Shown here: positions 2,251 to 30,994 of the stretch, piece by piece
Layout of the letters: every line of letters starts with the position of its first letter
Position numbering within the stretch: the stretch's first letter is position 1
From: Hoyosella sp. YIM 151337
GTDB lineage: Bacteria > Actinomycetota > Actinomycetes > Mycobacteriales > Mycobacteriaceae
DNA length: 64,000 bases
Direction of reading: 5' to 3'
Assembly: GCF_026041215.1 (NCBI RefSeq)
Contig: NZ_JAPEIQ010000013.1
Location: forward strand, 62,001-126,000
The notes under the pieces: model-generated
Told to the model about the DNA's origin: nothing
Databases searched by the model: none
What the model saw: the letters and a program-made list of their open reading frames with translations, nothing else
Position numbers and translations under genes: made by a program

Positions 2251-2264
2251 GGGACTTAAGTCCC
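2251..2264 (-). promoter_or_regulatory. DosR-type box, perfect palindrome
   Basis: GGGACTTAAGTCCC is fully self-complementary and matches the core of the mycobacterial DosR box (GGGACTWWAGTCCC) at 14 of 14 positions. It sits about 85 bp upstream of the universal stress protein start and overlaps the 3' end of the upstream hydrolase gene, so the usp gene probably has its own promoter inside an otherwise continuous gene run. Confidence 0.85.
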
Positions 2265-3143
2265 GACATCAGCGATGAGTGTGTCACTTTCTTGGGCAAT
2301 CGCCGATGCCGCTCCGATGACGTTGGTGATCACTTCGCCGAACCCGTTCGGATCGTAAAGCAGCCAGCCGTGCGTGCCTTCCACGGTGATCGCGGTAGCT
2401 TCACCAGACGCTGCGCGCAGCGCCGCTGTTGCTGCATCGGGAATGACGTTGTCGCGCTTGCTCCAAACGATAATCATGGGAAGCCGTCGCTGCTTGAGAA
2501 CCTCCAGCTCCCGTCGCAGGTCTGCGCCCCGTGCGAGGTTTCCGGCATGCCACACCGCCGGAAAGTTCCGCAGCAGGTTTGGTACCGCGTCACGGATGAT
2601 AACCGGAAGCACGCGGGTGACCTGACGCAGCGGGAACAAATCCGCGGAAAGGTGCAGGCCCCAGTCCCACAGCGGGCGTTCCCGCAGTGTCCGGGCCATT
2701 CCCCGGTAATCAGTCCATGCGGATCCGCCAATCGAGTTCACAAGCACCAAGCGAGCAACAAGGTCGGGGTGGTCGTGCGCGGTTGTGATGGCGACACCTC
2801 CGCCGAAGGAGTGCCCCACGAGTGTCACCCCCTGGGACTTATGCGCCGGCACGACATCTCGAATGAAGTCGGCAACCCAGTCGGCGTAGTGCCCCAGCGT
2901 GGCCCGTCCAACCTTGAGCCTTTCAGCGCCCCCGAAGCCGGGCAGCGTTGGGGCATACACGCGGTATCCGCGGTCAGCGAGCGCCTCGAGACTCTTACGA
3001 TAAGTCTTCGTGGAAACACCCCAACCATGCAGGAAGACCAGGGGGGCTCCCGCCCCGCCGGTCAGGTAGCGCACCACGGCGCCGTCAATACGCGCTCTCA
3101 GGAACGCCAGCCGCGTTGGGGCTGGACCACACTTGACCACCAT
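2256..3143 (-). CDS. alpha/beta hydrolase
   Basis: A 295-residue single-domain alpha/beta hydrolase. The oxyanion-hole motif FLHGWG is near residue 38, the nucleophile elbow is GHSFGG near residue 110, and the catalytic His is in EGTHGW near the C terminus. Substrate is unknown. AAGGAGGAG precedes the ATG, and the ATG overlaps the stop of the SulP transporter gene as TGATG, so the two are translationally coupled. A GTG one codon earlier is an alternative start. The last bases overlap the DosR-type box of the usp gene. Confidence 0.85.
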   Translation of the reverse strand: MVVKCGPAPTRLAFLRARIDGAVVRYLTGGAGAPLVFLHGWGVSTKTYRKSLEALADRGYRVYAPTLPGFGGAERLKVGRATLGHYADWVADFIRDVVPAHKSQGVTLVGHSFGGGVAITTAHDHPDLVARLVLVNSIGGSAWTDYRGMARTLRERPLWDWGLHLSADLFPLRQVTRVLPVIIRDAVPNLLRNFPAVWHAGNLARGADLRRELEVLKQRRLPMIIVWSKRDNVIPDAATAALRAASGEATAITVEGTHGWLLYDPNGFGEVITNVIGAASAIAQESDTLIADVGT

Positions 3144-5068
3144 CACCGCTCCTCCTTGAGCGACTCCCCCGCCAGCCGTCCGGCCACAGTTCGCGTTGTT
3201 CTGGCCTGCGCTAGCTTCACGCGACGTCCAGAACCTGCGGCTAACCGGCTGGCGGAGTCTGCTTCCCCGCCATTACCGGGGATCTCAGTATTTGAAACGC
3301 ATCCCCGAGTCCGCCCATTCCCGTGATCCGGCTGGGCCAATACGTCCGGGACCGGCGGCCCATGCGGGCCCTGCGCTGGTTCGGCTTCGTTCCGGCTTTC
3401 GCATGCCGCGCGATAGGCCGCAACCGCGGTCGGCAACGTCGGATATACGCGTCCCTCGCCAATCTTCTCCAGTAACCCCCCAGCGGCGAGCGGTTCACGG
3501 AGTTCCTGTTTGACTCGCGCCAGCGCGAACACCACTCCGCGCCCTTTCAGTTCCGTGTAGAGGTCGGTCAGCATGTCCATCGCGGTCAGGTCAATTTCGA
3601 TGTTCGCTTCCGCGTTGAGAAGAAACCACTCCGGCTTTTCTGGTGCCTCGTCCAGCGCTGCGAGTGCGCGACGGCGGAAGTTGTCCGCGTTCGCGAAGAT
3701 GAGCGGTGCGTCATAGCGATACACCACCAGTCCGGGGATCCGAACCGCGTCCGGATAGTCATCGATATCGTGCATGCCCGCAACTCCGGCCGGATACCCC
3801 AGGATCGCGTCATGTGGGCGGGCCACCTTGCGCAGCACATCCAGGATCGATAGCGCCACTGCGACCAGCACACCACCCAGCACACCGACGGTAAGCACAG
3901 CAATCGTGGTGGTCAGCCCGATCATCAACTCGCTGCGGCGAAAACGCCCGATCCTGCGAAACTCGTTGATGTCGATAAGCCGGACAGCCGCGAAGATCAC
4001 CAGCGCCCCGAGTGCGGCAAGCGGGAAGGATTCTAGAACTGGGCCGCCGAGAAACAGCGCCACTACCACCACTGCCAGTGCGACGAGTGAATGCGCCTGA
4101 GATCTGCTTCTGAACGCGTCACCGACCGCTGTGCGGCTCGCACTGCTGCTTACCGGGAAGCCCCTTGCGAAAGCCACGGCGAGGTTTGCCACCCCTAAGG
4201 CCAAGAGCTCGCGCTGCGCGTCGATGCGGTACTTATTGCGCGCCGCAAACGCACGGGCGGTGAGGACATTGTCCGAGTAGCCGACGATCGCTACACCGAT
4301 GGCGGGAAGGACCAGCAGCCCCACGTCATGCACCGAAATATCGGGGAATGCCGGGACCGGGAAGCCGCGCGGCATGTCCCCAACCACGGCCAGCCCAATA
4401 TCTGTGAGGGAAAAAAGCGCGGTGACGGCAGAGGCCGCGAGCACAGCAACGAGGGTGACAGGAACCTTCGGCCACCACCGCGTCCCGAAGACCAGCACAA
4501 TGAGCACCGCGGCGGCCACCGTCAGAGTCTGCCAATGCACATTGGGCAGTTGCCGCACGAAATCGCCAACCTCACCCGTTACCGATGTGCCGCTGACATC
4601 GGTCCCAGTTACCTTGCCTAGCTGGCTGACGACCATGATCACCGCGATCCCGGCCATGTAGCCAACGAGTACGGGCCGTGATAAGAGGTCAGCGACGAAG
4701 CCGAGACGAGCCAGCCATCCGGCGAGGCACACAACACCGACGAGCAGCGCCAGCGTCGATGCGAGCGCCGCATACCTGCTTGGGTCTCCACCGGCGAGGG
4801 GGCCGATGGCGACTGCTGTCATCAGCGCGGTCGTGGATTCCGGACCTACCGATAGCTGCCTCGATGACCCGAGGCAGGCGTATACCACCAATGCCACAGC
4901 AATCGTCCATAAACCGGTCACGGGCGGAAGCCCGGCCACGGCGGCGTATGCCATAACTTGCGGAACTAAGTAGGCGGCGACAGAGATGCCCGCGATCAGG
5001 TCGGAGCGTTCGGCGCCGCGCGGGAACGGCCGCACGGCGCGCAGACGCGCCTTCCACTCATCCCGCAC
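3143..5068 (-). CDS. SulP family anion transporter with STAS domain
   Basis: A 641-residue membrane protein: about ten to twelve hydrophobic segments over residues 30-425 (starting with the GISVAAYLVPQVMAYA helix) followed by a cytoplasmic STAS domain at about 435-545 (NIEIDLTAMDMLTDL). This is the SLC26/SulP architecture, moving sulfate, bicarbonate or other anions; which one is not evident. The GTG start was chosen because GGAGGAG lies five bases before it; a TTG 12 codons earlier is possible. About 85 residues after the STAS domain are polar and low in complexity, longer than the usual SulP tail. A weak DosR-like site lies about 95 bp upstream. Confidence 0.9.
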   Translation of the reverse strand: MRDEWKARLRAVRPFPRGAERSDLIAGISVAAYLVPQVMAYAAVAGLPPVTGLWTIAVALVVYACLGSSRQLSVGPESTTALMTAVAIGPLAGGDPSRYAALASTLALLVGVVCLAGWLARLGFVADLLSRPVLVGYMAGIAVIMVVSQLGKVTGTDVSGTSVTGEVGDFVRQLPNVHWQTLTVAAAVLIVLVFGTRWWPKVPVTLVAVLAASAVTALFSLTDIGLAVVGDMPRGFPVPAFPDISVHDVGLLVLPAIGVAIVGYSDNVLTARAFAARNKYRIDAQRELLALGVANLAVAFARGFPVSSSASRTAVGDAFRSRSQAHSLVALAVVVVALFLGGPVLESFPLAALGALVIFAAVRLIDINEFRRIGRFRRSELMIGLTTTIAVLTVGVLGGVLVAVALSILDVLRKVARPHDAILGYPAGVAGMHDIDDYPDAVRIPGLVVYRYDAPLIFANADNFRRRALAALDEAPEKPEWFLLNAEANIEIDLTAMDMLTDLYTELKGRGVVFALARVKQELREPLAAGGLLEKIGEGRVYPTLPTAVAAYRAACESRNEAEPAQGPHGPPVPDVLAQPDHGNGRTRGCVSNTEIPGNGGEADSASRLAAGSGRRVKLAQARTTRTVAGRLAGESLKEER

Positions 5069-5152
5069 ATCGGCTCCTCCGCGAGAACTTTTCTGTTTCT
5101 TCAAGCCTCGGACTTGCCTGTGTGCGATACGAGGGCCGATCGTCGTGAAATG

Positions 5153-5170
5153 TTAGGGGCCTTTGGACAC
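5153..5170 (-). promoter_or_regulatory. possible DosR-type box upstream of SulP gene
   Basis: On the minus strand the site reads GTGTCCAAAGGCCCCTAA, nearly the same as the site at 22192 (GTGACCAAAGGCCCTAA). It lies about 90 bp upstream of the transporter start. It matches only about half of the 20-bp mycobacterial consensus, so this is a weaker call than the others. Confidence 0.4.
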
Positions 5171-5187
5171 TTTCCGTGCCAGCGGCG

Positions 5188-7947
5188 TCACGGGCGCAGA
5201 CTCCTGCGTGCATGCCGGGCCGACCACCGTCTCAGCGCTTTCTCAGTCTCCACCGCCGCGAATGTGAGGACCGCGATACCCCCGATGGCGAGCCACGCTT
5301 CCAGCGAGATAGGCGCGGAGTGAAACAGCGTGTTCATGACGGGCGTGTACGTGTAGATCAACTGAAGAACGATCATCACAGCGATACCAATTGTGAGCCA
5401 CTTGTTGCTGAACAGCGGAGTGCGCAATGCGGAGCTAGCGAGGGAACGGCAATTGATCAGATACGCGACCTGGATGAAGACGATCACATTCACAGCCACA
5501 GTTCGCGCTTCTTCGATCGGCACGCCGTTCTGCAGCAGCCACTCGAACATCGTGAAAGCAGCGACCACCATAATCGCGGACACAGTGATGATTCGCCATA
5601 CAACAGCCCGGCTCAGCAGTGGCCTGGACGCGGGAACCGGCGCACGTCTCATAATCCCGCGCTCGAGGGGTTCGAACGCGAGCACCAGACCAAGAGCAAC
5701 GGCGGTAGTCATGTTTACCCACAAGATCTGTACAGGAAGGATTGGCAGCTGCGCTGCGAGAGCGATAGCCGCGAGAATGATCAGGCCCTGGCCGAGGCTG
5801 GTTGGCAAGATGAAGGTGATGAACTTCCGCAAATTGTCGTAGACTCCGCGGCCTTCTTCGATCGCCGCTTCGATGGACGCGAAATCGTCGTCCGTCAGCA
5901 CCATGTCGGACGACTCCTTGGCCACCTCTGTTCCGGCACGGCCCATCGCGATGCCGATGTCAGCACGCCGCAGGGCTGGCGCATCATTGACACCGTCACC
6001 TGTCATCGCGACCACATGACCGCTGCTCTGCAACGATTCGACGAGCCGCAGCTTCTGCTCCGGGGTCACGCGCGCAAACACATCCACACTCTCAACGAGT
6101 TCGGGAAGGTCTCGGATGGGGCATGCAGCGAGTTCAGCGCCTGTAACCACCCGCGCGCGGTTGTCTCCCCCGATACCGAAACGGCTCGCGATCGCACGCG
6201 CTGTCGCCGCATGATCACCCGTGATCATCTTCACCCGGATCCCGGCCTTTCGGCAGGTGTGGACAGCGTCGATCGCATCCGGCCGCGGCGGGTCCACCAT
6301 GCCCTGGAGTCCGATAAGGGTCAGCTGACCCGCTATTAGCGACTCGCTGAGGTGCGCTCCCCGATGTGTGATCTCAAGCCGGGCGAATGCCAGTACACGC
6401 AGCCCCGATTGGGCAAGAGAGTTCGCCATTGCCTCAGCGCGCGCCCGGTCGAGTGGCCGGGGCGTTCCAGTTACCGTGAGTTCGGTGGTGGCGAACTGCA
6501 GTATCCGCTCCACTGAACCTTTGACGTATACCACGCCACTGTTCGGCCGGCCGGGATCGTCACTGCTGTGCAACGTTGCCATGTACTGGGTGGCGGATTC
6601 GAAGGGAAGCACGCCGCGGCGGGGCACATTGCTCCGCAGCGCTGTGACGTCTTCTCCGGCTTTGAGCGCTGCGGTGAGAAGGGCTCCTTCAGTGGGGTCG
6701 CCGACCAGCTTCCACTGTCCCTCGTGCTCAGTAAGAACGGCGTCGTTACACAGCGCACCGGCGATAAAGAGCTCTCGCAACGCGGAGTTGTTCCCGGGCG
6801 GCGCAGACGACTTCTTTCCATCAATCGCGGTGACCGCACCCCGCGGGGCGTATCCGGCGCCGTCCAGTGCGTACGTGCACCCGCCAGCCCACGCCGCTGT
6901 CACCGTCATCTCGTTCGCGGTAAGCGTTCCAGTTTTGTCGGTACAGACAACGGTGGTGCTCCCCAGCGTCTCGACTGCGGGAAGGGTCCGGATGATCGCG
7001 CGTCGGCGCGCCATACGGGCCATCCCGATCGCGAGAGTGATTGTCACGACTGCCGGGAGTCCTTCAGGGATAGCCCCGACCGCGAGAGCCACGACTGCGG
7101 TGAGCATCGATGTGGCAGACTCGCCTCTTGCCAGCCCCAGTACGAATGCTGCGGCGGCGAGAACGAGGATCGCGACGGTCAGCACTTTGCTGAACTTCGT
7201 CAGGCGCCGCGTAAGTGGCGTTTGTAGCGTTGCTGCGCTACCGATTAGCCGATGTATGTGGCCTATTTCGGTGTCGGCACCAGTTGCTGCAACTATGCCC
7301 ATCCCCTGTCCGCGTGTCACCAATGTGCCCGAATACGCCATGTTCGCCCGATCCCCGAGTTCGGCCGAATCCGGTAGCGGCCCAGGAGCCTTCACAACGG
7401 GGACAGACTCACCGGTAAGCGCCGACTCGTCGATCTCGAGCGCGTGCACAGCGAAGAGCCGAAGATCAGCCGGCACTTTGTCACCGGCTTCGAGGACGAC
7501 GATGTCGCCTGGCACCAGATCCTCAGAAGCGACCCGCCGGTGCACGCCTTCGCGTATTACCACGCTGTGCGTCTTCGTCAGGGTGAGCAGCGCATCCAGT
7601 GCCTTTTCCGCTCGTGACTCCTGGATGTACCCGATAACCGCGTTGAGCAGGACAACGCCGGCGATCACGCTCGCATCAACGACCTCGCCGACGAGCAGCG
7701 TCGCCGCCGCGGCCACAATCAGTACGTAGATGAGCGGGTGATTGAACTGCAGAACGAACCGCAGCCATGGCGAGCGACGGTCGAAGCGGGGCAAGACATT
7801 TCCGCCAACACGGTCCTTGCGCTCGGCAGCGACGCTTCCGCTCAGTCCATACTGCAGGTCCGTTTCGAGCAGCGCGGCAAGTTCGTCGGCTTCCATTGTG
7901 TGGCTACCAGTGATGCGATCATCGCTCGCTACGGCCTGGTCGGTCAT
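5188..7947 (-). CDS. P2-type cation-transporting ATPase, CtpF-like
   Basis: A 919-residue P-type ATPase with an N-terminal cation ATPase domain (about 15-85), actuator domain with TGES, ten predicted membrane helices, PEGL in the fourth helix, phosphorylation motif DKTGTLT near residue 340 and hinge motif TGDGVND. It resembles the Ca2+-pump-like actinobacterial group that includes CtpF, a DosR-regulon member in M. tuberculosis; the sixth helix reads WVNMTTAV, so the ion specificity of SERCA should not be assumed. GAGGAG lies nine bases before the ATG. It is the last of four close genes read from the DUF302 gene. Confidence 0.93.
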   Translation of the reverse strand: MTDQAVASDDRITGSHTMEADELAALLETDLQYGLSGSVAAERKDRVGGNVLPRFDRRSPWLRFVLQFNHPLIYVLIVAAAATLLVGEVVDASVIAGVVLLNAVIGYIQESRAEKALDALLTLTKTHSVVIREGVHRRVASEDLVPGDIVVLEAGDKVPADLRLFAVHALEIDESALTGESVPVVKAPGPLPDSAELGDRANMAYSGTLVTRGQGMGIVAATGADTEIGHIHRLIGSAATLQTPLTRRLTKFSKVLTVAILVLAAAAFVLGLARGESATSMLTAVVALAVGAIPEGLPAVVTITLAIGMARMARRRAIIRTLPAVETLGSTTVVCTDKTGTLTANEMTVTAAWAGGCTYALDGAGYAPRGAVTAIDGKKSSAPPGNNSALRELFIAGALCNDAVLTEHEGQWKLVGDPTEGALLTAALKAGEDVTALRSNVPRRGVLPFESATQYMATLHSSDDPGRPNSGVVYVKGSVERILQFATTELTVTGTPRPLDRARAEAMANSLAQSGLRVLAFARLEITHRGAHLSESLIAGQLTLIGLQGMVDPPRPDAIDAVHTCRKAGIRVKMITGDHAATARAIASRFGIGGDNRARVVTGAELAACPIRDLPELVESVDVFARVTPEQKLRLVESLQSSGHVVAMTGDGVNDAPALRRADIGIAMGRAGTEVAKESSDMVLTDDDFASIEAAIEEGRGVYDNLRKFITFILPTSLGQGLIILAAIALAAQLPILPVQILWVNMTTAVALGLVLAFEPLERGIMRRAPVPASRPLLSRAVVWRIITVSAIMVVAAFTMFEWLLQNGVPIEEARTVAVNVIVFIQVAYLINCRSLASSALRTPLFSNKWLTIGIAVMIVLQLIYTYTPVMNTLFHSAPISLEAWLAIGGIAVLTFAAVETEKALRRWSARHARRSLRP

Positions 7948-7976
7948 TTCAGTCGTTTCTCCTCTTCAACGAAAGA

Positions 7977-8339
7977 TCACAGGTGGGTGGCGACGATCGA
8001 CGCCATAATCACGGGATTTACGACAACGCCGAAAGCTAGCCAGGTGTGGTAAAAGCCGACGCACAGCACGAGTGAGGTGAGGGCCCCGATGACTGCCAGG
8101 AACGGGGCCCAACTGGACCCGAGCAACAGGCCTAAGCCTGCGCCGACGAAGGTCAGCGCCGATAGTCCCGCGAGCCCCACCGCAACGAAACTCGCTTTCG
8201 CTTCGATGCCCCAGCGCCGTGCGAGCCACGAAAACCGCGGGTCATCGGTTCTGCGCGCGTGGGGCTGCCCAGGGCTGATCCATACACTCCAATGCACGAG
8301 GCCGTGCACGATGAGGAATGTTCCGGCCAGCGTATTCAT
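7977..8339 (-). CDS. small integral membrane protein, function unknown
   Basis: A 120-residue protein with four hydrophobic segments (roughly residues 2-18, 50-68, 72-88 and 93-115), so it lies almost wholly in the membrane. I do not recognise the family. Its ATG overlaps the stop of the DUF4389 gene by four bases (ATGA), and the P-type ATPase gene follows after about 30 bases, so it may be an accessory subunit or partner of the pump. That is inference from position only. Confidence 0.7.
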   Translation of the reverse strand: MNTLAGTFLIVHGLVHWSVWISPGQPHARRTDDPRFSWLARRWGIEAKASFVAVGLAGLSALTFVGAGLGLLLGSSWAPFLAVIGALTSLVLCVGFYHTWLAFGVVVNPVIMASIVATHL

Positions 8340-9745
8340 GGGAGTGAGTCACGCACCTCGGTAGCACCCTGATCAAGCCGGAACGGCGGGTACTCATCTC
8401 GCATGAGGGCGGCGTAGACCATGACGCGGAACACCCAGCGGTTGATCCCGATGATGAGGCTGAACAACGGCTGCGGATACGTACCCCGAAACAGCAGACT
8501 CACCGCCGCGACGAGCACCAGTAGTCCGAGGAGGGAGACGGAAAGCACCGACCGCCCGTCTGCCGACACCGCGATCGCCACCCCGCCTACGAGAACGGCG
8601 AGCACAAGGTAGTGCGGGATCGCGAGCAGCCACCACTTGACCAGGACCAGCCCGCGCGATAGGCGCTCCGGATACTCGACGTCGAACTCAGCTGGATAGT
8701 CAACAGCATGGAGCGTGAAAGGCGGGTAACGATCGGTGCCGAGCGCCGCGTACCCGTAGAAGCTGACTCGCCAGGACCATCTGAGGACGCCCACGTTGAA
8801 GTCGAATATCCACCGCGGATAGCGTGCCGTAAACAGGATGGCGAAGCCAGCGATGATGGTGAGCACGGCAAACGCGATGAAAAGGAAGAAGAGAACGATG
8901 TAGTGCGGTATCAGCAACAGCCATTTGACAAGCCATAGCCAGCGCGAAGATGGCGGCACAGCAAGCTCGCCGCGAAGACTGGCCGGGTAATGCATACCGG
9001 TTAGAGTTGCCGGCGCGACATAACCTCCCCGGCCTTCCAGGCCTCCCGGCGCCGGGCTGGGCGGACCAGCAGGCGTGGTGTCGATGCCGCGGGCGCCGAT
9101 CACGACGAGCGGCACGCCCACACCAAGTAAGATCACCGCTGCGGCGAGCGTTATCAGCGCGGCCGGCCCGAGGAGGCCGGAGTGCGCACCCGCGGTGACC
9201 TCAGCGGTGACGGGAGCGGTTCCGTCGGCGTTCATCACGACAATCAGCCATGTGCCTGGTTGAGGCTCCCATGTCACATCTTGTGGTCCTTGGCCCGTCG
9301 CGGAAGCCTCCCAGAAATCCTGCGCGGTCGGAGAAGCTGCCGTGCCGGTGCCGGGGACTTGGTGATAGCGGGCCCGGAATGGACTGAACCGCACTTCGCG
9401 CAGCTCTGAGTGCGCCGTCCCGAGCAGGTAATCGCGGACATCACCCTGAGTGGCGATACCGACAAAGACCTCGCCGCCCGGATCAGCTGCCTGTGCGGTA
9501 ATGCGGATGTCTCCCAGACGTTCCCGCACGAAACGTGGCAGCGGCTCGTCAAAGGTGATCGTGAACGGTTCCGAGACGATTGCCGTCCCGGAGCTCTCAT
9601 ATCGCTCTGTCGGCGTTTCGATGTACCCGTCACGACCCTGTGCCAGGGTTGCCCAGCCCAGCATCGCGGCGCCTGCGAGCGCAAGCAGACCCCCTAGTGC
9701 GAGCAGCGTGCCGATAACGATCAGCACGATCCTTCCTGCCTTCAT
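8336..9745 (-). CDS. DUF4389 domain membrane protein
   Basis: A 469-residue membrane protein. An N-terminal helix (about 6-30) is followed by an extracytoplasmic domain of about 150 residues, a second helix near 195-220 and a proline-rich stretch. The C-terminal part contains two copies of the DUF4389 unit, each with the form RWLWLVKWLLLIPHY ... W ... YPPF; the second starts at RGLVLVKWWLLAIPHY. The biochemical role of DUF4389 is unknown. It overlaps both neighbours by four bases (ATGA), which places it firmly in the operon DUF302, DUF4389, small membrane protein, P-type ATPase. Confidence 0.85.
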   Translation of the reverse strand: MKAGRIVLIVIGTLLALGGLLALAGAAMLGWATLAQGRDGYIETPTERYESSGTAIVSEPFTITFDEPLPRFVRERLGDIRITAQAADPGGEVFVGIATQGDVRDYLLGTAHSELREVRFSPFRARYHQVPGTGTAASPTAQDFWEASATGQGPQDVTWEPQPGTWLIVVMNADGTAPVTAEVTAGAHSGLLGPAALITLAAAVILLGVGVPLVVIGARGIDTTPAGPPSPAPGGLEGRGGYVAPATLTGMHYPASLRGELAVPPSSRWLWLVKWLLLIPHYIVLFFLFIAFAVLTIIAGFAILFTARYPRWIFDFNVGVLRWSWRVSFYGYAALGTDRYPPFTLHAVDYPAEFDVEYPERLSRGLVLVKWWLLAIPHYLVLAVLVGGVAIAVSADGRSVLSVSLLGLLVLVAAVSLLFRGTYPQPLFSLIIGINRWVFRVMVYAALMRDEYPPFRLDQGATEVRDSLP

Positions 9746-10632
9746 TGATTGTTCTCCTCACGCAACGATTGGATCGCGGCGCTGAGGCGCGACAGCGCTT
9801 CTGGCGCGACGCGTTCGAGGGCATGCACGTGTGCCGCATTGACCAGTGCCTCAGGATCCAGCGCATCGACCACAACAGCGCCCGTCTCAGTCGGGTGATC
9901 CCGCACCACGACGTTGCACGGCAGGAACAAACCCGCCTGCGGGTCTGCGGCGAGGGCGCGCCGGGCGAGGCCGGGGTTACAAGCACCCAGGATGACGTAA
10001 TTGGAAAACCCTTCACCCAGCTTTTCCGCGAAGGTCTTCTTCATATCGATCTCAGTAATGATGCCGAAGCCGTGCTCGGCCAGTGCATGCCGCGTGCGTA
10101 TCAGAGCCTCAGGAAAGGGCATCCGCATCGTCGCTTGCATCGCGATCTCGGGCACGATTGGCAGCCGGACTTCCGTGACGAAATTCCGCTGATCAGCGCC
10201 TTCACCCGGGCCGACTAGGTACACCTCAGTTGGTGGTCCGTTCACGCGGAACCGCGCGGCGCCTATCCACTTCTCCAATGCGTGGTACGCGTCGCAGATT
10301 GTGTCGCGACTACCCCGGTGCAGCGTGTGCGCGCAGAGGTCGCCCGGCAGCGTTATCACCGCAGTTTCCGGCGCCGTCTCCACCGCGGCACTTGCGTGGT
10401 CATCTCTGATCGGCAGAAACAGATGTACTGGAACGCGGTTGTCCGGGGCGAAATCAGCCAGATACGTCACAGCCGGAGAGCCGGTCGCGACCACTTGCGC
10501 GGCACTCGCCGCTTCGGCAAGCTCCCGCATCCGCCGCGCGACTTCTTGCGGCACCTTGTCGGCGTCGATGACGGTGCGGAGGCTGAGCGCGGTGCGCGGA
10601 GCCGTTTCGGAAACCGTGATTTCGTACGACAT
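9742..10632 (-). CDS. GyrI-like plus DUF302 domain protein
   Basis: A 296-residue cytoplasmic protein. Residues 1-160 look like a GyrI-like (AraC-effector-binding) small-molecule domain and residues 165-285 like DUF302 (MRMPFPEALIRTRHALAEHG, then ILGACNPGLARRAL and a PCNVVV strand). DUF302 proteins often accompany redox or oxygen-responsive genes, but their activity is not settled. The start is placed at the ATG preceded by GAGAGG, not at an in-frame ATG 18 codons upstream. It heads a four-gene operon and has a DosR-type box about 110 bp upstream. Confidence 0.82.
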   Translation of the reverse strand: MSYEITVSETAPRTALSLRTVIDADKVPQEVARRMRELAEAASAAQVVATGSPAVTYLADFAPDNRVPVHLFLPIRDDHASAAVETAPETAVITLPGDLCAHTLHRGSRDTICDAYHALEKWIGAARFRVNGPPTEVYLVGPGEGADQRNFVTEVRLPIVPEIAMQATMRMPFPEALIRTRHALAEHGFGIITEIDMKKTFAEKLGEGFSNYVILGACNPGLARRALAADPQAGLFLPCNVVVRDHPTETGAVVVDALDPEALVNAAHVHALERVAPEALSRLSAAIQSLREENNQ

Positions 10633-20851: not shown

Positions 20852-20856
20852 AGAAT

Positions 20857-22136: not shown

Positions 22137-22191
22137 CTGAATCTCCTCTGCCGTAGATCTTCAGGATCGCGCAGAGCGCGTCAGCAAGTAA

Positions 22192-22592: not shown

Positions 22593-22647
22593 TCGCGGCT
22601 ACGAGCGGGTAGTTCGAGTCTGAGAACCCTTGGGAGAGGAGATATCG

Positions 22648-23292: not shown

Positions 23293-23329
23293 GTCACCAG
23301 AGGCCGACTCCCGCTGCAGCGTCGCAAAA

Positions 23330-23343
23330 GGGACCAAGGTCCC
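23330..23343 (+). promoter_or_regulatory. DosR-type box, perfect palindrome (GGGACC form)
   Basis: GGGACCAAGGTCCC has perfectly complementary arms (GGGACC and GGTCCC) around a two-base centre and differs from the M. tuberculosis core only at the inner pair. It lies about 70 bp upstream of the second small-protein gene. The form is shared with the sites at 10733 and 12185. Confidence 0.75.
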
Positions 23344-23406
23344 TACATGGAAGGGGCTTCCGCCGCTTACAAGGCGTCACGGTTGAAATTCAAACTAGAA
23401 GGGTAA

Positions 23407-23763
23407 ATGGTGTTCAGCCCTGCGGCTGCTGAGTTCCCGGACGGTCTTATGTCAGGTTCGCTACCAATTCTTCCCACTGACAAGGGAGGCCCCTTAAGCC
23501 ACGAGCAGTGTGTGAAAGCCGCGAAAGTCGCTGCGCACTACGCCACCGACGCGGACGATCTGCGCCACATCTTGTCCATGCTGGGCCTGCTCGAGGGGTG
23601 CAGTGAGGAGCCAGCGGACGCCTCAGGCGCCGCACATAATGGCCACTCTGCCCACAATGGAAACGGGTATTCGGTCCCGCAGACCTCCGTTATGGATCGG
23701 CTCAGCGCGCTCGAATTCGGACCTGAGGATCCCGGTTACGCTGCGGGTGCGGCCACCTGCTGA
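23407..23763 (+). CDS. small protein with YATDADDLRxxLxMLGLL motif, copy 2
   Basis: A 118-residue protein, paralogous to the one at 22302 over the segment VAAHYATDADDLRHILSML (about residues 41-59). The C-terminal half is different and His/Asn-rich (HNGHSAHNGNG). AGAAGGG lies a few bases before the ATG; an ATG 14 codons downstream is an alternative. No known domain is recognised. The last 28 bases overlap the 3' end of the convergent hydrolase gene. A perfect palindrome of DosR-box type stands about 70 bp upstream. Confidence 0.72.
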   Translation: MVFSPAAAEFPDGLMSGSLPILPTDKGGPLSHEQCVKAAKVAAHYATDADDLRHILSMLGLLEGCSEEPADASGAAHNGHSAHNGNGYSVPQTSVMDRLSALEFGPEDPGYAAGAATC

Positions 23764-24557
23764 ACGGGAGCCGACCGCACCGCGCTGCCCTTGAGCAGCA
23801 CGGAGACGACACCATCGGGGTCATCGTTCATCGGCACATGCCCGGCCAGCGGCATGATGACCAGATCCGCATGCGGGAACTTCTCGCGCACCCGAAAGGC
23901 CTGATAAACGGGAAGAATGAAGTCAAGCCCGCCCCATTGCACCGTCACCGGGATGGATTCGTCGACAGGTGCGCTGAGCTGGAACGTCGACTCCGCAACG
24001 CGCTCAGCGGTGACATTGTTCGCAAGCGAGGCAGCGTCTGCTGCCGCATCTTCCGGGCTAATGCGCCACGGACGGCTGAAGAACGGCGCAAGCGCGGCGC
24101 TGCGCACAGCTGTGTTCCGAAGCGCGTGCAAGCGAACCGGGCCGAGCGCTCGCGACACGAAGCGCAAGCCCCGGAACGTTTCGACGGTGCGCCGCTCATC
24201 GAGGGAGTTCAGCCAAAATCCAGCTGGCGAGAGTGCAGTCGCTGACGCAACGGCACCGCGCGCTGCGAGTTCTAGCGCCAGCCAGCCGCCGAGGGAGTTG
24301 CCTGCAACGTGGGCCAACTCGCCACGCGGGGTGACTTCGCCGATGAAGTTCTCGAGGATGTCGGCCATCATGTGTGCGGCATCGTCCCCCTCACCGAGGT
24401 GCGGTGATTGCCCGTGACCAGGCAGATCAACGGTCACCACTCGCCGATGCTCGGCAAGCTTCTGAATAACAGGCGTCCAGGCCTGCTGGCGGTGCACCAC
24501 GCCGTGCACCAATACGAGCGTCGGGCCTGCTCCGTAGATCCGGTACGCGAGATCCAT
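23736..24557 (-). CDS. alpha/beta hydrolase
   Basis: A 273-residue alpha/beta hydrolase with LVHGVVH (oxyanion hole), GNSLGG as the nucleophile elbow near residue 90 and a C-terminal catalytic His in AGHVPMNDDP. This is the general layout of esterases and C-C bond hydrolases; the substrate is unknown. The start chosen is the ATG with GGAGG ten bases upstream; an in-frame ATG 31 codons earlier would add a basic, poorly conserved-looking leader. An inverted repeat about 80-95 bp upstream may be an operator. The 3' end overlaps the convergent small-protein gene. Confidence 0.85.
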   Translation of the reverse strand: MDLAYRIYGAGPTLVLVHGVVHRQQAWTPVIQKLAEHRRVVTVDLPGHGQSPHLGEGDDAAHMMADILENFIGEVTPRGELAHVAGNSLGGWLALELAARGAVASATALSPAGFWLNSLDERRTVETFRGLRFVSRALGPVRLHALRNTAVRSAALAPFFSRPWRISPEDAAADAASLANNVTAERVAESTFQLSAPVDESIPVTVQWGGLDFILPVYQAFRVREKFPHADLVIMPLAGHVPMNDDPDGVVSVLLKGSAVRSAPVQQVAAPAA

Positions 24558-24760
24558 GCGGCTGTGTCCTCCACCTTCCCCCGGACCAGCCTGGATGCTG
24601 ACACTCCTGTGTGCCGAGCGACGTGATCCGGTACGTATGCGACGATGCATACGCGCGACTAGCTCACATTAGATGGAGACAATGAGCGTTGTAAATATCC
24701 GCGACGGCGTTTCTCACATAAGTTCGCGTCTCAAACCTGCAGCGGGTGTGGTGTGCATCA
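24558..24760. other. intergenic region without a gene
   Basis: About 200 bases between two minus-strand genes. It holds the leader of the hydrolase gene and the inverted repeat at 24634. Short open frames here lack ribosome-binding sites and family features. No DosR-type site was found. Confidence 0.6.
24634..24653. promoter_or_regulatory. inverted repeat, operator-like
   Basis: CGTATGC and GCATACG are exact reverse complements separated by six bases (GACGAT). The element lies 77-96 bp upstream of the hydrolase start and is the size of a TetR-, MarR- or LysR-type operator. No regulator gene is adjacent. Confidence 0.5.
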
Positions 24761-25390
24761 CTACAAATGTCGAACAAACCAGTCACGCGCGGCGTCAGCA
24801 GCCGCGCCGAGCGTTCCCGGTTCCTCGAACAAATGCGTGGCGCCCGGAATCGTCACCAGCAGCTTTTCGCACGTCATCGTGGTGAGAACCGCGCGGTTCA
24901 ACTCGAGAACGTCATGGTCGCGTTCACCCACGATAAGCAGCGTTGGCGCCGTTACGCGCGCTGCGTCAACCGCGAGGTCGGGACGGCCGCCACGTGACAC
25001 CACCGCTGAAACCCTGGTCCGTGCGGCCGCGTACAACGCGGCGGCCGCCCCAGTGCTCGCGCCAAAGAGACCCAGCGCCACGTCCGCTGGTTTCCACTGG
25101 TCACGCAACCAACTGGTGGCACCAAGTAATCGTTCCCCCAGCAGACCGATATCAAAGACGAGCCGCCTGTCGCCTTCCTCAGAAGGTGTCAGCAAGTCGA
25201 ACAGCAGCGTGCCCAGACCGGCCTGATGCAGAACGTCCGCGACGTAACGGTTGCGCGGACTCATCCGGCTGCTGCCGCTGCCATGAGCGAAAACGACAGG
25301 CCCCGCCGAACCGGCAGGTTTCACCAGGTCACCCGTGAGTTCCACCGAGCCGAGCCTGATGTTGACACTGTCCACATGTGGCATGGTCAT
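24761..25390 (-). CDS. dienelactone-hydrolase-like alpha/beta hydrolase
   Basis: A 209-residue hydrolase with VFAHGSGSSR near residue 35, nucleophile elbow GASTG near residue 115 and a catalytic His in PGATHLFEEPG. It resembles the hydrolase half of the phosphoribosyltransferase-hydrolase fusion protein Rv0571c, a DosR-regulon member, but here stands alone. GAGG lies five bases before the ATG, which is ten bases after the alcohol dehydrogenase stop, so it is the last gene of the minus-strand run beginning at 30897. Confidence 0.85.
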   Translation of the reverse strand: MTMPHVDSVNIRLGSVELTGDLVKPAGSAGPVVFAHGSGSSRMSPRNRYVADVLHQAGLGTLLFDLLTPSEEGDRRLVFDIGLLGERLLGATSWLRDQWKPADVALGLFGASTGAAAALYAAARTRVSAVVSRGGRPDLAVDAARVTAPTLLIVGERDHDVLELNRAVLTTMTCEKLLVTIPGATHLFEEPGTLGAAADAARDWFVRHL

Positions 25391-25400
25391 CGCATCCTCA

Positions 25401-26399
25401 CTAGGGAACGAGCACCGCGGCGCCGCTGAAGCGCCCCGCTGCGAGATCGCGCAGCGCATCATGCGCGCCGCTCAGCCGATACACGTGGCTCGACACCTCA
25501 AGTCGGTGACTACCCGCGAATTCCAGAAACTCACGAGCTTGCCCCCGCGTATTGGATGTCACGCTCCGCACCTGCCTTTCCCTGAACAAATGACGCTGAT
25601 AGTTGAGAACGGGAACATCGGTCAGGTGGATACCTGCGAGCGCGAGCGTTCCGCCCGCGTCTAGCGCTTCGAGTGCGGGCAACACGAGTTCCCCCGCGGG
25701 TGCGAAGAGAATTGCCGAATCCAGCGGCTCAGGGGGCGCGTCGGCCGCACCTTGCGCAGACGCGGCGCCAAGTTCAAGCGCAAGGTGCCGCGCATCCGCC
25801 CCGCGCGTCATGACATGCACTCTGCACCCTCTGGCGAGGGCGACCTGGGCTGTCAAGTGAGCACTGCCTCCGAAGCCGTAGATCCCGAGCACACCACCAG
25901 CAGGTACCTCCGCGCGCAGCAGCGCGTGGTAGCCAATAATTCCCGCGCACAACAGCGGGGCGAGTTCAGTGTCCGAGTAGCCACGTGGCAATCTCAGCGC
26001 GTAGTCCGCGGGCACAGTCGCGTACTCTGCATATCCCCCATCGCTATCCCAGCCCGTATAGCGGGACGCGGTGCAGAGATTCTCGGCGTCGCGTGCGCAA
26101 TACTTGCAGGCTCCGCACGTGTGACGCAGCCAGGCGATCCCGACTCGCTCACCCACATCGAAGCCCGTCACCGCGCCACCAGCCGACGCGACCTCACCCA
26201 CAACCTCATGTCCCGGCGTGACGTGTGGACGGTGCACTGCCAGGTCTCCCTCGACAACGTGCAGATCCGTTCGGCACACTCCGCATGCCAAAACACGAAC
26301 AAGTAGCTCGTTCTCCGCAGGTTGGGGGCGCTGCTCCTCGGTGAGCCGCAGAGGACTGCCGGTTATCGGTCCGGGTTCAGTAACTCGCCACCTGCGCAT
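25401..26399 (-). CDS. zinc-dependent alcohol dehydrogenase (MDR family)
   Basis: A 332-residue medium-chain dehydrogenase. Catalytic zinc ligands are in CGVCRTDLH and GHE ([13 protein letters not shown]); the four structural-zinc cysteines are in [15 protein letters not shown]. The Rossmann fold carries [10 protein letters not shown], which keeps the GxGxxG-like turn with a small change. It would oxidise alcohols or reduce aldehydes with NAD(P). AGGAG lies eight bases before the ATG. It follows the P1B-type ATPase gene by 37 bases. Longer starts upstream would add a poorly structured basic leader and are rejected. Confidence 0.92.
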
Positions 26400-26436
26400 A
26401 GCGCTGCTCCTTAACTCCCCCATCGGGTACGCGCAC

Positions 26437-28734
26437 TCAGCCTGCGCCCGGCTTGTGTCCGCTGTCCTCAGCCAAACTGAAGTACGCTTCCTCCTCTTGA
26501 GCGAAGTGCAGCGTAAGGATCGCGTCAAGACCGTAGAGCGTCGCCCGCAAATCTTCGATTTGTTCAGCTGCGATACAACCAGTGGATTCGCTGAGATGCC
26601 GGCCCAATCGGCGTGTCAGCCGCTCGATCTCCGCGTGCTCACGGCTCATGGTCAGCGTCACCTCGCGGGTATTCCAGAGCGCGTTCAATGCGGGGTAAAG
26701 CTCCTTCTCCTCTGCTGCCTCATGAGGGAGTATCTCCCGCTGCAACGCTTCGTACGCAGCGCAGACCGCAACATACGCAGCGGCTGCCCTTCCGCTCTCG
26801 CTAAGTGCCGCCGCAGCGTGCCGTACAGCGGAACGCGCCTGGGACAGTTCGTCGTGTTCCTTCGCAAAACGCTCAAGCAGCCCGCTTACCGGACGGGCAA
26901 GCCGCGTACGTTTACGCAAAACGATCCGGAGCGAATTGAGGATCACAGCGACATCGATCCCTTCCTGCACGATTGCCCCAGCCAGCGGCACAAGCAGTCC
27001 TGCCGCCGCGAATCCCATGGCAATGAGTGAAAGAGACATGCCGATCATGGCGCTCTGCACGGCGAGACGGCGGCTGCCGCGAGCAATCTCGACCGCGTCG
27101 GCTAGGCGGTCGATTCGGTCGTCGACGATAACGGCGTCCGCAGCCTGCACCGCCGCTGTCGAGCCACGCGAACCGAGCGCCACTCCCACGTCTGCAGCCG
27201 CGAGGGCGGGGGCGTCGTTGATGCCATCACCGACCATCGCGGTTGGCGCCCGGCGGCACTCGTCCTGTACACGCCGAATCTTCGCAGCTGGGCTCGCGTC
27301 AGCGGCAACATCAGTCACCCCGATGAGCGCGGCGGTTTCCGCGGCGTTCTCAAGCTTGTCCCCCGTCAACAGCACCGTGCGACCGATTCCAGCGGAAGCG
27401 AGCCGGAGCATCGTCCGATTCGCGTCCGGCCGTATCCGGTCTGTCATGAGCAATGCACCGGCGAGAACGTCGTCGGCCTCGACCCACACCACCGAAGCGA
27501 GGTCGAGCCGGGCGCGGAGTGCCACGCCGCGGGCCCAATCGGGAGCAGTCTCGACGTGCAGCTGCCCCACGCGTATCCGCGTGCCGTCGACATACCCTTC
27601 GGCATAGGAGCCATGTGATTCTCGTACTTGTTTGGCGGGCATCAGGGCGGCACCGCTCTTGCGTGCCGCTCGAACGATCGCTTCGGCCGTAACGTGGGAC
27701 GAGTACTGCTCGACTGACGCCGCCTCAGCAAGTACAGATTGCGGATTATGCTCTGGCGCGGTTACCACTGCCGCAACGCTCGGCTGGCCGGTTGTGACCG
27801 TTCCAGTTTTGTCCATGACGAGAGTCCGAACCCGCCCGAGCGACTCGAGTGCGGCACCATCTTTGACGACCACCCCAGCGCTCGACGCGCGCGATAGGCC
27901 TCCCGTGATCGCAATGGGCACTGCCAGGATCAACGGGCACGGTGTGGCGGTGACGAGCACCGCGACGCCGCGGACGGGATCGCCACTGAGGAGCCACGCA
28001 CCCAAAGCGATAGCGACCGCCACCGGGAGGAACCACTGGGCGACGTGGTCGGCGATCCGCGCAATGGGCGCTGACTCGGCAGCTGCCTGCTGCGCGAGAT
28101 GCACGATTCCGGCGTAGGTGCTGTCAGCTGCCCGCGATGTCACGGACATCCGCACCGCGCCCCCGCCGTTCACCACGCCGCTGCGCACCGCGCTTCCACG
28201 CTCCCGGGTGACCAGAAGGGCTTCGCCGGTGAGGGCGGACTCGTCCAGCACAGCGTTCTCACAGAGGACGCCGTCAACGGGAACGATCTCTCCAGAACGC
28301 ACGACGACCTCGTCACCAGGCCTGATCGCGTCCACCTCGACAGTCTCGGTCCCTGCGGCCGTCACCCGGTGCGCGTGGCGCGGTGCACGATCCAACAAGG
28401 CAGTCAAGTCCTTCGCGGCGCGCCGGGACGCGAAACCTTCCAGCAAACGGCCCGTCGCCACCATAAGACCGATGACTGCGCCCGCCAGCAATTCGCCAAC
28501 CAGAAGTGTTGACGCAAGAGCGAGCACCGCGAGGAGGTCCGCACCGTACTTGTGCCGCCGAAAATCCTGGAACACCCACCATGCTGCGGGCAGCAAAACG
28601 ATGACGATCCCCCCGGCCCAAAGCGCGTCCGACGCGACCGTGCTGAACAGCCGCGCCACTCCGCCACCGGTGAGCGCGGCGATCACCGAAATAAGCAGCA
28701 ACGTCTGTGGGTTCCGGAGCCTGCGCAACGCCAT
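26437..28734 (-). CDS. P1B-5-type metal ATPase with C-terminal hemerythrin domain
   Basis: A 765-residue metal pump. It has the P1B layout with TGEA in the actuator domain, ion-site motif TPCP near residue 266 (instead of CPC or SPC), phosphorylation motif DKTGT near 307 and a GDGIND hinge. Residues about 618-765 form a hemerythrin-like four-helix bundle with [16 protein letters not shown] and HFAQEEE, the His and carboxylate ligands of a di-iron site. TPC plus hemerythrin defines subgroup P1B-5, linked to Ni/Fe transport. There is no N-terminal heavy-metal-associated domain. The ATG overlaps the deacetylase stop as TGATG; a GTG 18 codons earlier lacks a ribosome-binding site. Confidence 0.9.
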
Positions 28735-29585
28735 CACCAAAGCAGTTCGTCCAATGTCACGAAGCCATACCCCTGGCCGCGCAACCACGTGATGATCTGG
28801 GGCAGCGCGTCAGCATCCAGTGTCGACCCATCGGATGGGTGCGCGCCGACGTGCATCAGCACGATTTGCCCCGGCTGCGCCGTTGTTTGCACGCGGTCCA
28901 CGACTGTCTGGATACTTCTGCCACCGCTGGTGCCCTGCCAGCCGAGAGTGTCCACCGTCCAGCGAACCGCCAGATATCCAGCGCCGTTTACCGCTGCGAT
29001 ACTGCGCGCATCACGATCGCCGAAGGGAAACCGGAAGAAGGGCTTCGGGTTGCCACCCGCGGATGCTATGGACTGCTCGGCAGTCGCGATCTCCGCTCGG
29101 ATCTGGGTATCGCTCAGCGACGTGAAGTACGGATGCGTCTGCGAATGGTTGCCGAGTCGGTGGCCCTGGTTTGAGATGCTCGCTATCCCAGCCGGATTCG
29201 CCGCCGCGAACGCTCCGGTTGGAAAGAACGTTGCGCGGACATTTTCCGCCGCCAGCACGTCCAGTATTCGCTGCAGTCCGGCCCCACTCGCGCCCGCGTC
29301 AAATGTGAGCGCCACGACGCGCCTGTCCGTCGGCATCACCTCGATATCAGAGCCGATGTAGCGGGCAGGGAAAGCGGGAGCAGGCGGCGCAGGCTGGGGG
29401 AACGAGGCCGGGGGCGCCAGTGGGCTTGTTGCTGGCGGCGGCCCCGTTTCTGCAGGTGTCGTTGGCGGGGCCGTGCCAGCGAATGGAGGCTCGTTAGCCT
29501 CTTCTCTACTGGCACATGCCCCAACCAGCAACATGCAAGAGGTAACAGCTGCCAGTCTGACGAGAGGCGACTTCGGCTTCCTCAC
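28734..29585 (-). CDS. polysaccharide deacetylase lipoprotein (NodB domain)
   Basis: A 283-residue exported protein. A signal peptide ends in the lipobox LLVGAC (Cys near residue 24), then a Pro/Ala-rich linker to about residue 75 and a NodB domain. Motifs seen: LTFDAG (motif 1, with Ala where many members have the second metal-binding Asp), NHSQTH (zinc His pair), RFPFGDRD, TLGW and VLMH. It would remove acetyl groups from a cell-wall or surface polysaccharide. It overlaps the upstream small-protein gene by four bases (ATGA) and the ATPase gene by TGATG. Confidence 0.88.
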   Translation of the reverse strand: MRKPKSPLVRLAAVTSCMLLVGACASREEANEPPFAGTAPPTTPAETGPPPATSPLAPPASFPQPAPPAPAFPARYIGSDIEVMPTDRRVVALTFDAGASGAGLQRILDVLAAENVRATFFPTGAFAAANPAGIASISNQGHRLGNHSQTHPYFTSLSDTQIRAEIATAEQSIASAGGNPKPFFRFPFGDRDARSIAAVNGAGYLAVRWTVDTLGWQGTSGGRSIQTVVDRVQTTAQPGQIVLMHVGAHPSDGSTLDADALPQIITWLRGQGYGFVTLDELLW

Positions 29586-29882: not shown

Positions 29883-30308
29883 TCATGCGGCTCCCCGGAA
29901 CCTCTCGCTGAATGCACGCCCGCAGTGACGATCGAGGATCGGCCGAACAGCACTCAGTTTGATCACTCCAACCAGGCAGCCGTGATCCTGAACCAGCACC
30001 GCACCGGACGCGGACTCTGCGAATGCGCGGTCCACGGCCATCGCGTCGGCATCCGCGTCGACGTAGCACAGACCGTGACTGCAGCACTCACCGGCAGTAG
30101 CACTCGAGTCGACCGGGTCTTCACTGCTGACTGGCGCCACAAGCAACCCGATGCAACGGCGCTCCATCATGATCGGTGCTTCCGAAACACCAAAGTAGGA
30201 CATCAATTCGAGTGCCGCCGTTACCGGCAGGTGGGCGGGCACACCGACGATCCGATTGTTCATGAGGTGGCGAGCCGTCAGCGCGGTCTGCGAAGTTGCG
30301 GACATCAT
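29883..30308 (-). CDS. CBS-domain protein, Hrp1-like
   Basis: A 141-residue protein with two CBS motifs (about 10-65 and 80-135), the size and layout of hypoxic response protein 1 (Rv2626c, 143 residues), a DosR-regulon protein of M. tuberculosis. The segments ATAGE and CYVDADADAM match the inter-repeat region of that family. Cys residues cluster in ECCSHGLC, which could bind metal or form disulfides. CBS pairs usually bind adenine nucleotides. Its ATG follows the stop of the Rv1733c-like gene by seven bases. Confidence 0.82.
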   Translation of the reverse strand: MMSATSQTALTARHLMNNRIVGVPAHLPVTAALELMSYFGVSEAPIMMERRCIGLLVAPVSSEDPVDSSATAGECCSHGLCYVDADADAMAVDRAFAESASGAVLVQDHGCLVGVIKLSAVRPILDRHCGRAFSERFRGAA

Positions 30309-30315
30309 GCACCGC

Positions 30316-30897
30316 CTATCCGATTGCAGCTTTGAGTTCCTGCTCCCACTGCGCGAATCGCCGCCTATTCGCGAGACCGTGGATGAGCGCGTATATCCCG
30401 AAAACCGCCGCGAGAGAGATCAGCCAGAACGTCAGGCCAGTGATCACGCCGGTGTTCACAGCTTGTGTGGCGTCCATCGGCCGGGGCACCACGGCACCAG
30501 TTGCGTCGTCGAGCCAAATTGATACCCGGCTTCCCACAGGAGTGCCTGACGGCACGTCTACCAGGCCGGACGCCTCCGTGCCCCAAGGCGTCACCCACGT
30601 CGCGGGGACGCGTGGCGGCACAACCGGTTCGAACCCGCGGGCTACCGCGGTTGCGGGCGGCGCGGCCTCCTCCGTAATCGCGGTGACTTGCACTCGGCTC
30701 TGCTGCTGCAGCTCGGCAATTCGCAGCTGCGAGTGCCCCATGGAAGAACCCACTGTGAGCGCGACTGGCAGTGTGACAAGCGCGATGAGCACCAACACAG
30801 GGATGCACCGGGCTTCGATCCGGTCGATCGGACGCACCAGCGGGTTACCACGGGAAAATATCCGGGACTGCAGTACGTGAAGACCACTTCCGTGCAT
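30316..30897 (-). CDS. Rv1733c-like membrane protein
   Basis: A 193-residue protein with two membrane helices (about 33-55 and 160-180) and an extracytoplasmic domain between them. The N-terminal sequence FSRGNPLVRPIDRIEA corresponds to the signature of Rv1733c, a DosR-regulon membrane protein and latency antigen; the central WVTPWGTEASG ... VGSRVSIWLD also fits. Function is unknown. GGGAGG lies six bases before the ATG. A strong DosR-type box lies about 90 bp upstream, making this the first gene of a likely seven-gene run down to 24761. Confidence 0.85.
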   Translation of the reverse strand: MHGSGLHVLQSRIFSRGNPLVRPIDRIEARCIPVLVLIALVTLPVALTVGSSMGHSQLRIAELQQQSRVQVTAITEEAAPPATAVARGFEPVVPPRVPATWVTPWGTEASGLVDVPSGTPVGSRVSIWLDDATGAVVPRPMDATQAVNTGVITGLTFWLISLAAVFGIYALIHGLANRRRFAQWEQELKAAIG

Positions 30898-30980
30898 CGT
30901 AAACCTCCCAGCCAGCCGTGCTAAGACTGAGTCTTCTCCCGGGAGGGCACGGCATCGACTGGCGAAGGGCACCGGTTAAA

Positions 30981-30994
30981 GGGACTAAATGCCC
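30981..30994 (-). promoter_or_regulatory. DosR-type box upstream of Rv1733c-like operon
   Basis: GGGACTAAATGCCC matches GGGACTWWAGTCCC at 12 of 14 positions with a perfect left half, and is followed by AAA as in the extended consensus. Its centre is about 90 bp upstream of the Rv1733c-like start. Confidence 0.75.

Follow-up and report, generated by a model that had tools for sequence, protein, structure and literature searches.

A DevSR-type hypoxia regulon probably gathered behind DosR-type boxes in a Hoyosella gene island

The stretch of DNA considered in this work (64,000 nt, G000:C5:62001-126000; the window in what follows) belongs to Hoyosella sp. YIM 151337, whose 4.91-Mb genome is assembled in 48 contigs. 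It holds an island of genes at positions 2251-30994 that is very probably a main part of a DevSR (DosSR) regulon for hypoxia and nitric oxide (NO) in this Hoyosella, judging from sequence comparisons of its promoters, gene families and sensor. Palindromic boxes of the GGGAC-WW-GTCCC type are present in the island promoters. Besides the boxes, the island includes universal stress proteins (Usp), Acg, Rv1733c, CBS-domain proteins, wax ester synthase/diacylglycerol acyltransferase (WS/DGAT) and P-type ATPases, which are typical families of the DosR/DevR regulon. A first-pass annotation of the window had noticed DosR-type sites in front of dormancy-regulon families, and this observation is borne out, with a DevS-type sensor encoded in the island and DevR in the genome. 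Two sister genomes were compared, those of Hoyosella altamirensis DSM 45258 (G001, locus L123) and of a third Hoyosella (G002).

The boxes were scored with a matrix learned by a palindromic 20-mer search from random seeds in 127 regions upstream of acg and usp homologues standing beside devS in named actinobacteria, Hoyosella being excluded. The DosR box was recovered de novo as RGGGNC..WW..GNCCCY, and an estimated 86% of the regions hold one. The eight top scores of the window fall at 23330, 22192, 2251, 5157, 10736, 30981, 13394 and 12185. All eight boxes are intergenic, in a window with an intergenic share of 13%, all lie inside the island, and they stand approximately 70-120 bp upstream of a gene; the genes behind them, in order along the window, are usp, sulP, DUF302, dgat/acg, ppsA, E2/96-aa, 118-aa and Rv1733c. 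The ninth match is the coding position 54141, and the tenth is 20835. None of 500 column-permuted matrices equalled eight intergenic positions out of eight (mean 1.05, maximum 6).

Counting mismatches to the consensus leads in the same direction for the strongest sites. Exact sites number five in the genome, two of them in the window (2251 and 23330), and ten sites are found genome-wide at one mismatch or less, eight intergenic and two coding. At two mismatches or less there are 80 sites, six in the window and all six within 2251-30994, where about 0.5 would be expected (Poisson P ~1e-5, a post hoc value because the window had been flagged for these very sites). Genes were called with a codon-usage script of this analysis, and not with a published caller. 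The script that sorted the sites into coding and intergenic placed five of these six between genes and 12185 in coding sequence, the latter because it carried acg upstream past 12288, although the sister genes back a start there. Outside the window, 36 of 66 two-mismatch sites were fetched, and 26 of them are coding and 10 intergenic, in surroundings that are about 90% coding. Strong sites therefore favour promoters, and the two-mismatch sites elsewhere are mostly chance. These counts bear on the outcome that the first-pass annotation had named as refuting its reading, namely that such sites are equally common inside genes. The ten sites that it listed all exist, displaced by 4 bp at most, nine of them with three mismatches or fewer and 20832 by the matrix only. 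Two of its readings had to be corrected. The best box before ppsA is 13394, 22 bp away from the proposed 13416, which scores 0.5, and the ranking of 20832 below 20857 is reversed (10.2 for 20835, 7.9 for 20857). Its spacing of 60-110 bp between site and gene is right provided that 23407 is the start of the gene behind 23330; the gene caller preferred 23512.

The pairing of a primary with a weaker secondary box in one promoter, a mark of the DosR/DevR regulon, is also found in the island. Of nine sites, seven are accompanied by a weaker box on the gene side at a distance of 22-24 bp (22 bp in five cases and 23 or 24 bp in two), whereas none was found at 20-24 bp from 2251 or 22192 (on the E2 side for the latter), both of which are strong first boxes. 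At +22 the matrix score averages -3.6, a value attained in none of 5000 shuffles of the flanks, while the average for other offsets is -13.7 (standard deviation (sd) 1.3); the test is partly post hoc because the offset was first spotted in these same promoters, and the nine sites and the gene side of shared sites were picked by hand. The relatives show peaks of their own at -22 and +22 (means -8.9 and -10.7, against -13.5 with sd 0.96), and box pairs 22-23 bp apart occur in the devR loci of both sister Hoyosella. Primary and secondary DevR sites are known in Mycobacterium tuberculosis (PMC7018068).

The putative sensor is encoded at 19039-20820 (plus strand) and has the architecture GAF-GAF-HisKA_3-HATPase by Pfam and PDB matches. 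Its first GAF domain matches PDB 2vzw (DosT) at E 1.5e-72 and 2w3d (DevS GAF) at E 1.3e-60, and its ATPase part matches DevS and DosT (3zxo, DevS, E 4.5e-34); elsewhere in the three Hoyosella genomes, matches are confined to the kinase part. These matches make it a GAF kinase of DevS/DosT type with predicted heme binding: H165 is invariant and Y187 present in at least 90% of 26 aligned kinases, and we take them to be the positions of DevS His149 and Tyr171. DevR, of 215 residues, is encoded on contig C45 and matches the M. tuberculosis DevR structure 3c3w at E 3.5e-95, being the single DevR match at E <= 1e-65 in the genome. Its gene has an Acg-family gene 2 kb upstream and two boxes, one upstream (16.8) and one between devR and a usp gene (18.0). 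In M. tuberculosis devS follows devR, and DosT itself is unlinked. Adjacency of the two genes is usual without being defining, and here they stand on different contigs; in the sisters they are ~1.61 Mb (G001, kinase at 1622667) and ~1.73 Mb (G002) apart. Among 27 genomes of the window's family, surveyed with one match per search, both positions listed and read by eye, the distance is within 2.2 kb in 22 and 11-38 kb in three, and the genes are unlinked in two (151 kb; different contigs). We also examined the best 80 of at least 530 named devS loci, some of which end at contig ends and one of which (L123) is Hoyosella; devR stands within 10 kb of devS in 64 of them.

Altogether nine DosR-type sites serve eleven gene starts. 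At the left stands the gene of a universal stress protein with two Usp stretches (1309-2172, minus strand; PF00582, E 4e-38), whose exact-consensus box (2248-2267, score 17.2) overlaps the stop codon of an alpha/beta hydrolase gene (2256-3143). This gene overlaps that of a SulP transporter (3143-5068; both within 2256-5068, minus strand; PF00916 E 8e-94, PF01740, PF00561), which has a box at 5154-5173 (15.0) and a second one 24 bp nearer the gene (7.2). A run of DUF302, DUF4389, small-protein and CtpF-like P-type ATPase genes follows (5188-10632, minus strand; gaps -4, -4 and 29 bp), behind a box at 10733-10752 (14.9) with a weak second box at 22 bp (2.8). The WS/DGAT gene (10764-12110, minus strand; TIGR02946, 324 bits, exceeding the cut-off) and the gene of an Acg (Rv3131) family FMN oxidoreductase (12288-13274, plus strand; NF047509, 343 bits, cut-off 199) have a common box at 12182-12201 (10.9), with a second box at 22 bp on the acg side (3.9). 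The box pair before ppsA occupies 13391-13432, and behind it the overlapping genes of a phosphoenolpyruvate (PEP) synthase (13488-15803), a HAD/beta-phosphoglucomutase-like protein (bPGM, 15800-16597) and a GH65 protein (16590-19004) form a plus-strand run (13488-19004) that is followed after 34 bp by devS.

Beyond devS, a box pair 22 bp apart (20832-20873) precedes a plus-strand open reading frame (ORF) of 127 aa (20955-21338) that the gene caller missed and that has no Pfam or NCBIfam match. Next comes a stand-alone 2-oxoacid dehydrogenase E2 catalytic domain (21339-22136, minus strand; PF00198 E 1e-20, with no lipoyl-domain match), and its box at 22189-22208 (18.4) is shared with the facing gene, that of a 96-aa protein (22302-22592), which is followed by the gene of a PRC-barrel/DUF2382 protein (22648-23292), both within 22302-23292 on the plus strand. 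The top score of the window, 19.6, belongs to an exact-consensus box at 23327-23346 with a weak second box at 23 bp (4.6), before the gene of a 118-aa paralogue of the 96-aa protein (23407-23763, plus strand; 33% identity; the start may be 23512). At the right end, an Rv1733c-family gene (30316-30897; NF050032, 138.6 bits, cut-off 80) and a CBS-domain, Hrp1-like gene (29883-30308; PF00571, E 1.6e-5) stand 7 bp apart (29883-30897, minus strand) behind a box at 30978-30997 (13.3) with a second box at 22 bp on the Rv1733c side (6.8). Since their members overlap or stand close together, the arrangement suggests the gene units sulP-hydrolase, DUF302-DUF4389-small-CtpF, ppsA-bPGM-GH65-devS and Rv1733c-CBS.

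The sister islands, compared over 60 kb with gene matches at E 1e-8, keep usp, hydrolase, sulP, acg, ppsA, GH65, devS, E2, PRC, second hydrolase, alcohol dehydrogenase (ADH) and alkB in both cases, the E2-domain orthologue being beside acg. Boxes stand at the corresponding place before sulP (14.5 and 14.3) and acg (10.8 and 14.5), and a usp box (13.0) lies ~40 bp nearer the gene than in the window genome. In H. altamirensis acg, ppsA, GH65 and devS, judged by their matched stretches, succeed one another in the same direction with ~17, 36 and 91 bp between them, and therefore devS may be under the acg box there. These islands are smaller, with the same core genes. No match at this threshold was found in them to the CtpF run, dgat, bPGM, the small genes or the P1B-hemerythrin, deacetylase, CBS and Rv1733c genes, and a search of both whole sister genomes at E 1e-40 gave no match to the CtpF-like ATPase. 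They also contain no exact box and have fewer boxes before genes.

We think that the regulon would work as follows. Low oxygen or NO would act on the heme of DevS, which would phosphorylate DevR made from the distant devR locus. Phosphorylated DevR would bind the strong box of a promoter and then help to occupy the weaker one, which lies closer to the gene by about two helical turns. In this way it would switch on some twenty genes, for stress proteins, Acg, transporters and triacylglycerol synthase, and its targets would also include PEP synthase and the disaccharide-phosphorolysis pair. With devS as the last gene of the ppsA-bPGM-GH65 run and devR behind boxes of its own, both sensor and regulator would be self-reinforcing.

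Several observations weigh against assigning the island to DevSR. At three mismatches or less the enrichment in the window is weak, with 24 matches against 15.85 expected and two of 100 shuffles reaching 24. Matrix matches of at least 11 in the island number 7, while 200 base-shuffled versions average 2.3 and reach 8 at most; matches of at least 6 number 32, against 32.6 in the shuffled versions. Three of the boxes, those at acg, ppsA and 20.8 kb, have moderate scores (10-12), and the second box of ppsA is very weak. Scores of at least 11 also occur elsewhere in the genome, three in 20 kb of L046 and three in 94 kb of other loci; there are none in L055 and none in the last 31 kb of the window. 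Within the island, the matrix scan of the 23.8-29.9 kb stretch gave no box of 10 or more for the genes at 23736-29336, and in G001, examined gene by gene, no such box stands before ppsA, the PRC gene, devS or alkB. The box signal stands out by its top scores and placement, not by counts, and since the island counts are close to those of shuffles at low scores and exceed them moderately at 11 or more, single moderate boxes are untrustworthy alone.

A refinement compatible with the DevSR assignment is that DevR controls a core only (usp, sulP, DUF302-CtpF, dgat/acg, ppsA-devS, E2 and small genes, Rv1733c-CBS) and that the box-less genes in between are passengers. The box-free genes at 23736-29336 and the alkB promoter, kept without a box in the sisters, speak for it, whereas read-through from neighbouring promoters may reach some of these genes, and both sisters have the ADH (25401-26279) and hydrolase (23736-24557) genes still next to devS; we judge the matter evenly balanced. 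It is very improbable that the sites are bound by a different regulator of the NarL/LuxR family, the overlap with the dormancy regulon being incidental. The genome does contain 34 GerE/LuxR-type domain matches, and NarL-type proteins can share related half-sites, but the matrix comes from regions near devS in genera other than Hoyosella, the only DevR-grade regulator found is flanked by the same boxes, and the island kinase is of DevS/DosT type. Less credible still is the idea that GC-rich palindromes with an AT centre were picked by eye out of chance matches, which would agree with the weak three-mismatch excess, the low-score island counts and the mostly coding two-mismatch sites elsewhere, and which could account for 20857 and 13416 taken singly, but which is contradicted for the eight best sites jointly by their placement and scores, by the second box and by the boxes in the sisters.

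Beyond the DevSR assignment, there may be an evolutionary side to the island, to which we give an even chance as a joint proposal. The Hoyosella DevSR pair would have been split, with the sensor in an island operon and the regulator in a distant, box-flanked acg-devR-usp locus, and blocks of genes would have been recruited under strong boxes. Thus, devS would be the last gene of a DevR-driven operon for sugar phosphorolysis and PEP synthase, and the recruits, whose boxes are absent from the sister islands, would be the CtpF operon, WS/DGAT, Rv1733c-CBS and the two small paralogues, which belong to a little-known family of small actinobacterial proteins.

In M. tuberculosis, Usp, Acg, CtpF-like, WS/DGAT, Rv1733c and CBS proteins are members of the DosR regulon. 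That regulon is spread over several loci, in contrast with the gathered island genes. A likeness to the island lies in its 20-bp palindromic box with primary and secondary sites (PMC7018068). The first-pass annotation had set the gathered layout of the island against the scattered one of M. tuberculosis, yet gathering is not distinctive, as many devS loci are alike and M. smegmatis and Streptomyces coelicolor have gathered regulons too. For M. smegmatis, PMC2799521 and PMC11303327 report two Dos clusters of 31 and 6 genes; msmeg_3926-3955, with msmeg_5241-5246, resembles the island in having ~30 neighbouring hypoxia-induced genes, devR/devS, five Usp, a PEP synthase, a cation P-type ATPase and an acyltransferase. 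The cluster is induced at 2.5% oxygen saturation, and in the two clusters PEP synthase, a NiFe hydrogenase and a P-type ATPase are the exceptions that lack M. tuberculosis Dos counterparts (PMC2799521). It contains devR and the hydrogenase, whereas the Hoyosella devR is elsewhere and no hydrogenase turned up in family scans of the island genes; the island, unlike that cluster, has SulP, the E2 domain, GH65/bPGM and the two small paralogues. The S. coelicolor OsdKR cluster SCO0198-SCO0219 is similar in its DevR-type regulator, palindromic AGGGCCGATCGGCCCT boxes and richness in Usp, and of 22 genes standing together there, 20 are controlled through eight OsdR sites (PMC5069765); its other gene content differs, and the regulator and nitrate reductase genes lie inside. 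In Hoyosella, by contrast, a nar-like operon lies ~20 kb beyond the island. We tried this operon (51433-58229, the large subunit alone scanned) as a member and rejected it, as it has no box of 10 or more in front. DosR boxes, and so a DosR-type regulon outside Mycobacterium, have also been predicted in Rhodococcus equi 103S (PMC2947987). Open-access literature, searched by titles only, gave none on this regulon in Hoyosella among the titles listed.

Within 10 kb of devS, the 80 named loci hold Acg in 54, Usp in 32, WS/DGAT in 12, PpsA in 7, GH65 and DUF302 in 6 each, CtpF-like ATPases in 5, SulP and Rv1733c in 4 each and E2 in one, that of H. altamirensis. Similar loci occur in many Nocardia, Mycobacterium and Amycolatopsis; PpsA stands directly before DevS in two Nocardia (L136, L142), and some relatives likewise have SulP, DUF302, DUF4389 and GH65/bPGM as neighbours of devS. 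At least one box scoring 13 or more is found in 22 of 24 devS loci examined, a count that is partly circular because the matrix was learned from such loci. The extra members proposed earlier fare unequally: ppsA was already hypoxia-induced in the M. smegmatis cluster (PMC2799521) and SulP is known beside devS from those relatives, whereas among the named loci E2-domain genes, like PRC-barrel genes, were found beside devS in Hoyosella only, and the two small proteins only in the locus of this genome (motif scan). The gathering and several extra members are thus already known elsewhere; less usual are the distance between devS and devR, the place of devS at the end of the ppsA-bPGM-GH65 run and the box-bearing units missing from the sister islands.

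The small proteins of 22302-22592 and 23407-23763, which stand behind the two highest-scoring boxes, share ATDADDLR..L.MLGLL. A two-row profile finds relatives in 87 of 298 genomes of the order (E <= 0.001), and many of the short ones carry a similar ATDADECRMLLSMLGI motif. Among 11 loci of these proteins in other genomes, L224 has a box (10.9) some tens of bases upstream and the other ten have none above 10 nearby, and therefore a general link of the family with DevR is not supported.

Contrary to the first-pass annotation, the regulon is not packed into one island: the genome has devR and a further acg and usp, all with good boxes, outside it, together with strong boxes before other genes. 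One of these (19.2) lies 84 bp before an Rrf2 (NsrR-like) gene that is followed by a flavohemoglobin gene, with another strong box (13.8) 20 bp away (L049:9227-9260); no phased second box accompanies the strong boxes given in the next two sentences. Others stand before a CopD/CtaG-domain gene (19.8), a second alkB-like gene (15.6) and a nitroreductase-family gene (16.7), and between a CBS-BON gene and a KAS III gene (15.6). An exact box occurs near the start of an ABC-transporter-like gene (C18:14335) in all three Hoyosella (18.9, 20.4 and 18.4; L050, L203, L204), with a glutaminase-like gene close by; the transporter gene was named by reading and its start codon is uncertain. At C25:27291 a box lies 63 bp from what looks, by reading, like a CoA-transferase gene, but 249 bp from the ORF of cydA, which leaves cydAB as a possible target only. 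These boxes are candidate regulon sites, for which NO detoxification would fit.

Some neighbouring features of the window deserve a record of their own. The alkB-like gene of the fatty-acid-desaturase family (31165-32391) is ~91% identical in the sisters, with a promoter strongly conserved without a box; we considered it as a target of the 30981 box, which is unlikely, as both sisters keep that box-less promoter. A heavy-metal P1B ATPase with a C-terminal hemerythrin domain is encoded at 26437-28734, has sister relatives of 32-35% identity and presumably resembles the P1B-5 class. At 35264-38363 there is an egtB-like gene in which FGE-sulfatase and DinB_2 domains were found, and the two genes beside it we assume, by position, to be like egtC and egtD. 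Farther on, two similar 185-aa proteins with signal-like starts are encoded in tandem (38475-39032 and 39202-39759), and both match one same place in each sister.

The Hoyosella island does not overturn current understanding. It would extend the DevR hypoxia regulon, studied in mycobacteria and one streptomycete, to Hoyosella, where the box is defined, a second one stands in phase with it, and sensor and regulator are named. SulP, the stand-alone E2 domain and the two small proteins become candidate dormancy genes. Moreover, three related genomes that differ in gene blocks and boxes offer a tractable case of regulon growth and, if the proposed split and recruitment are true, the growth of the island and the gain of boxes can be followed between close species.

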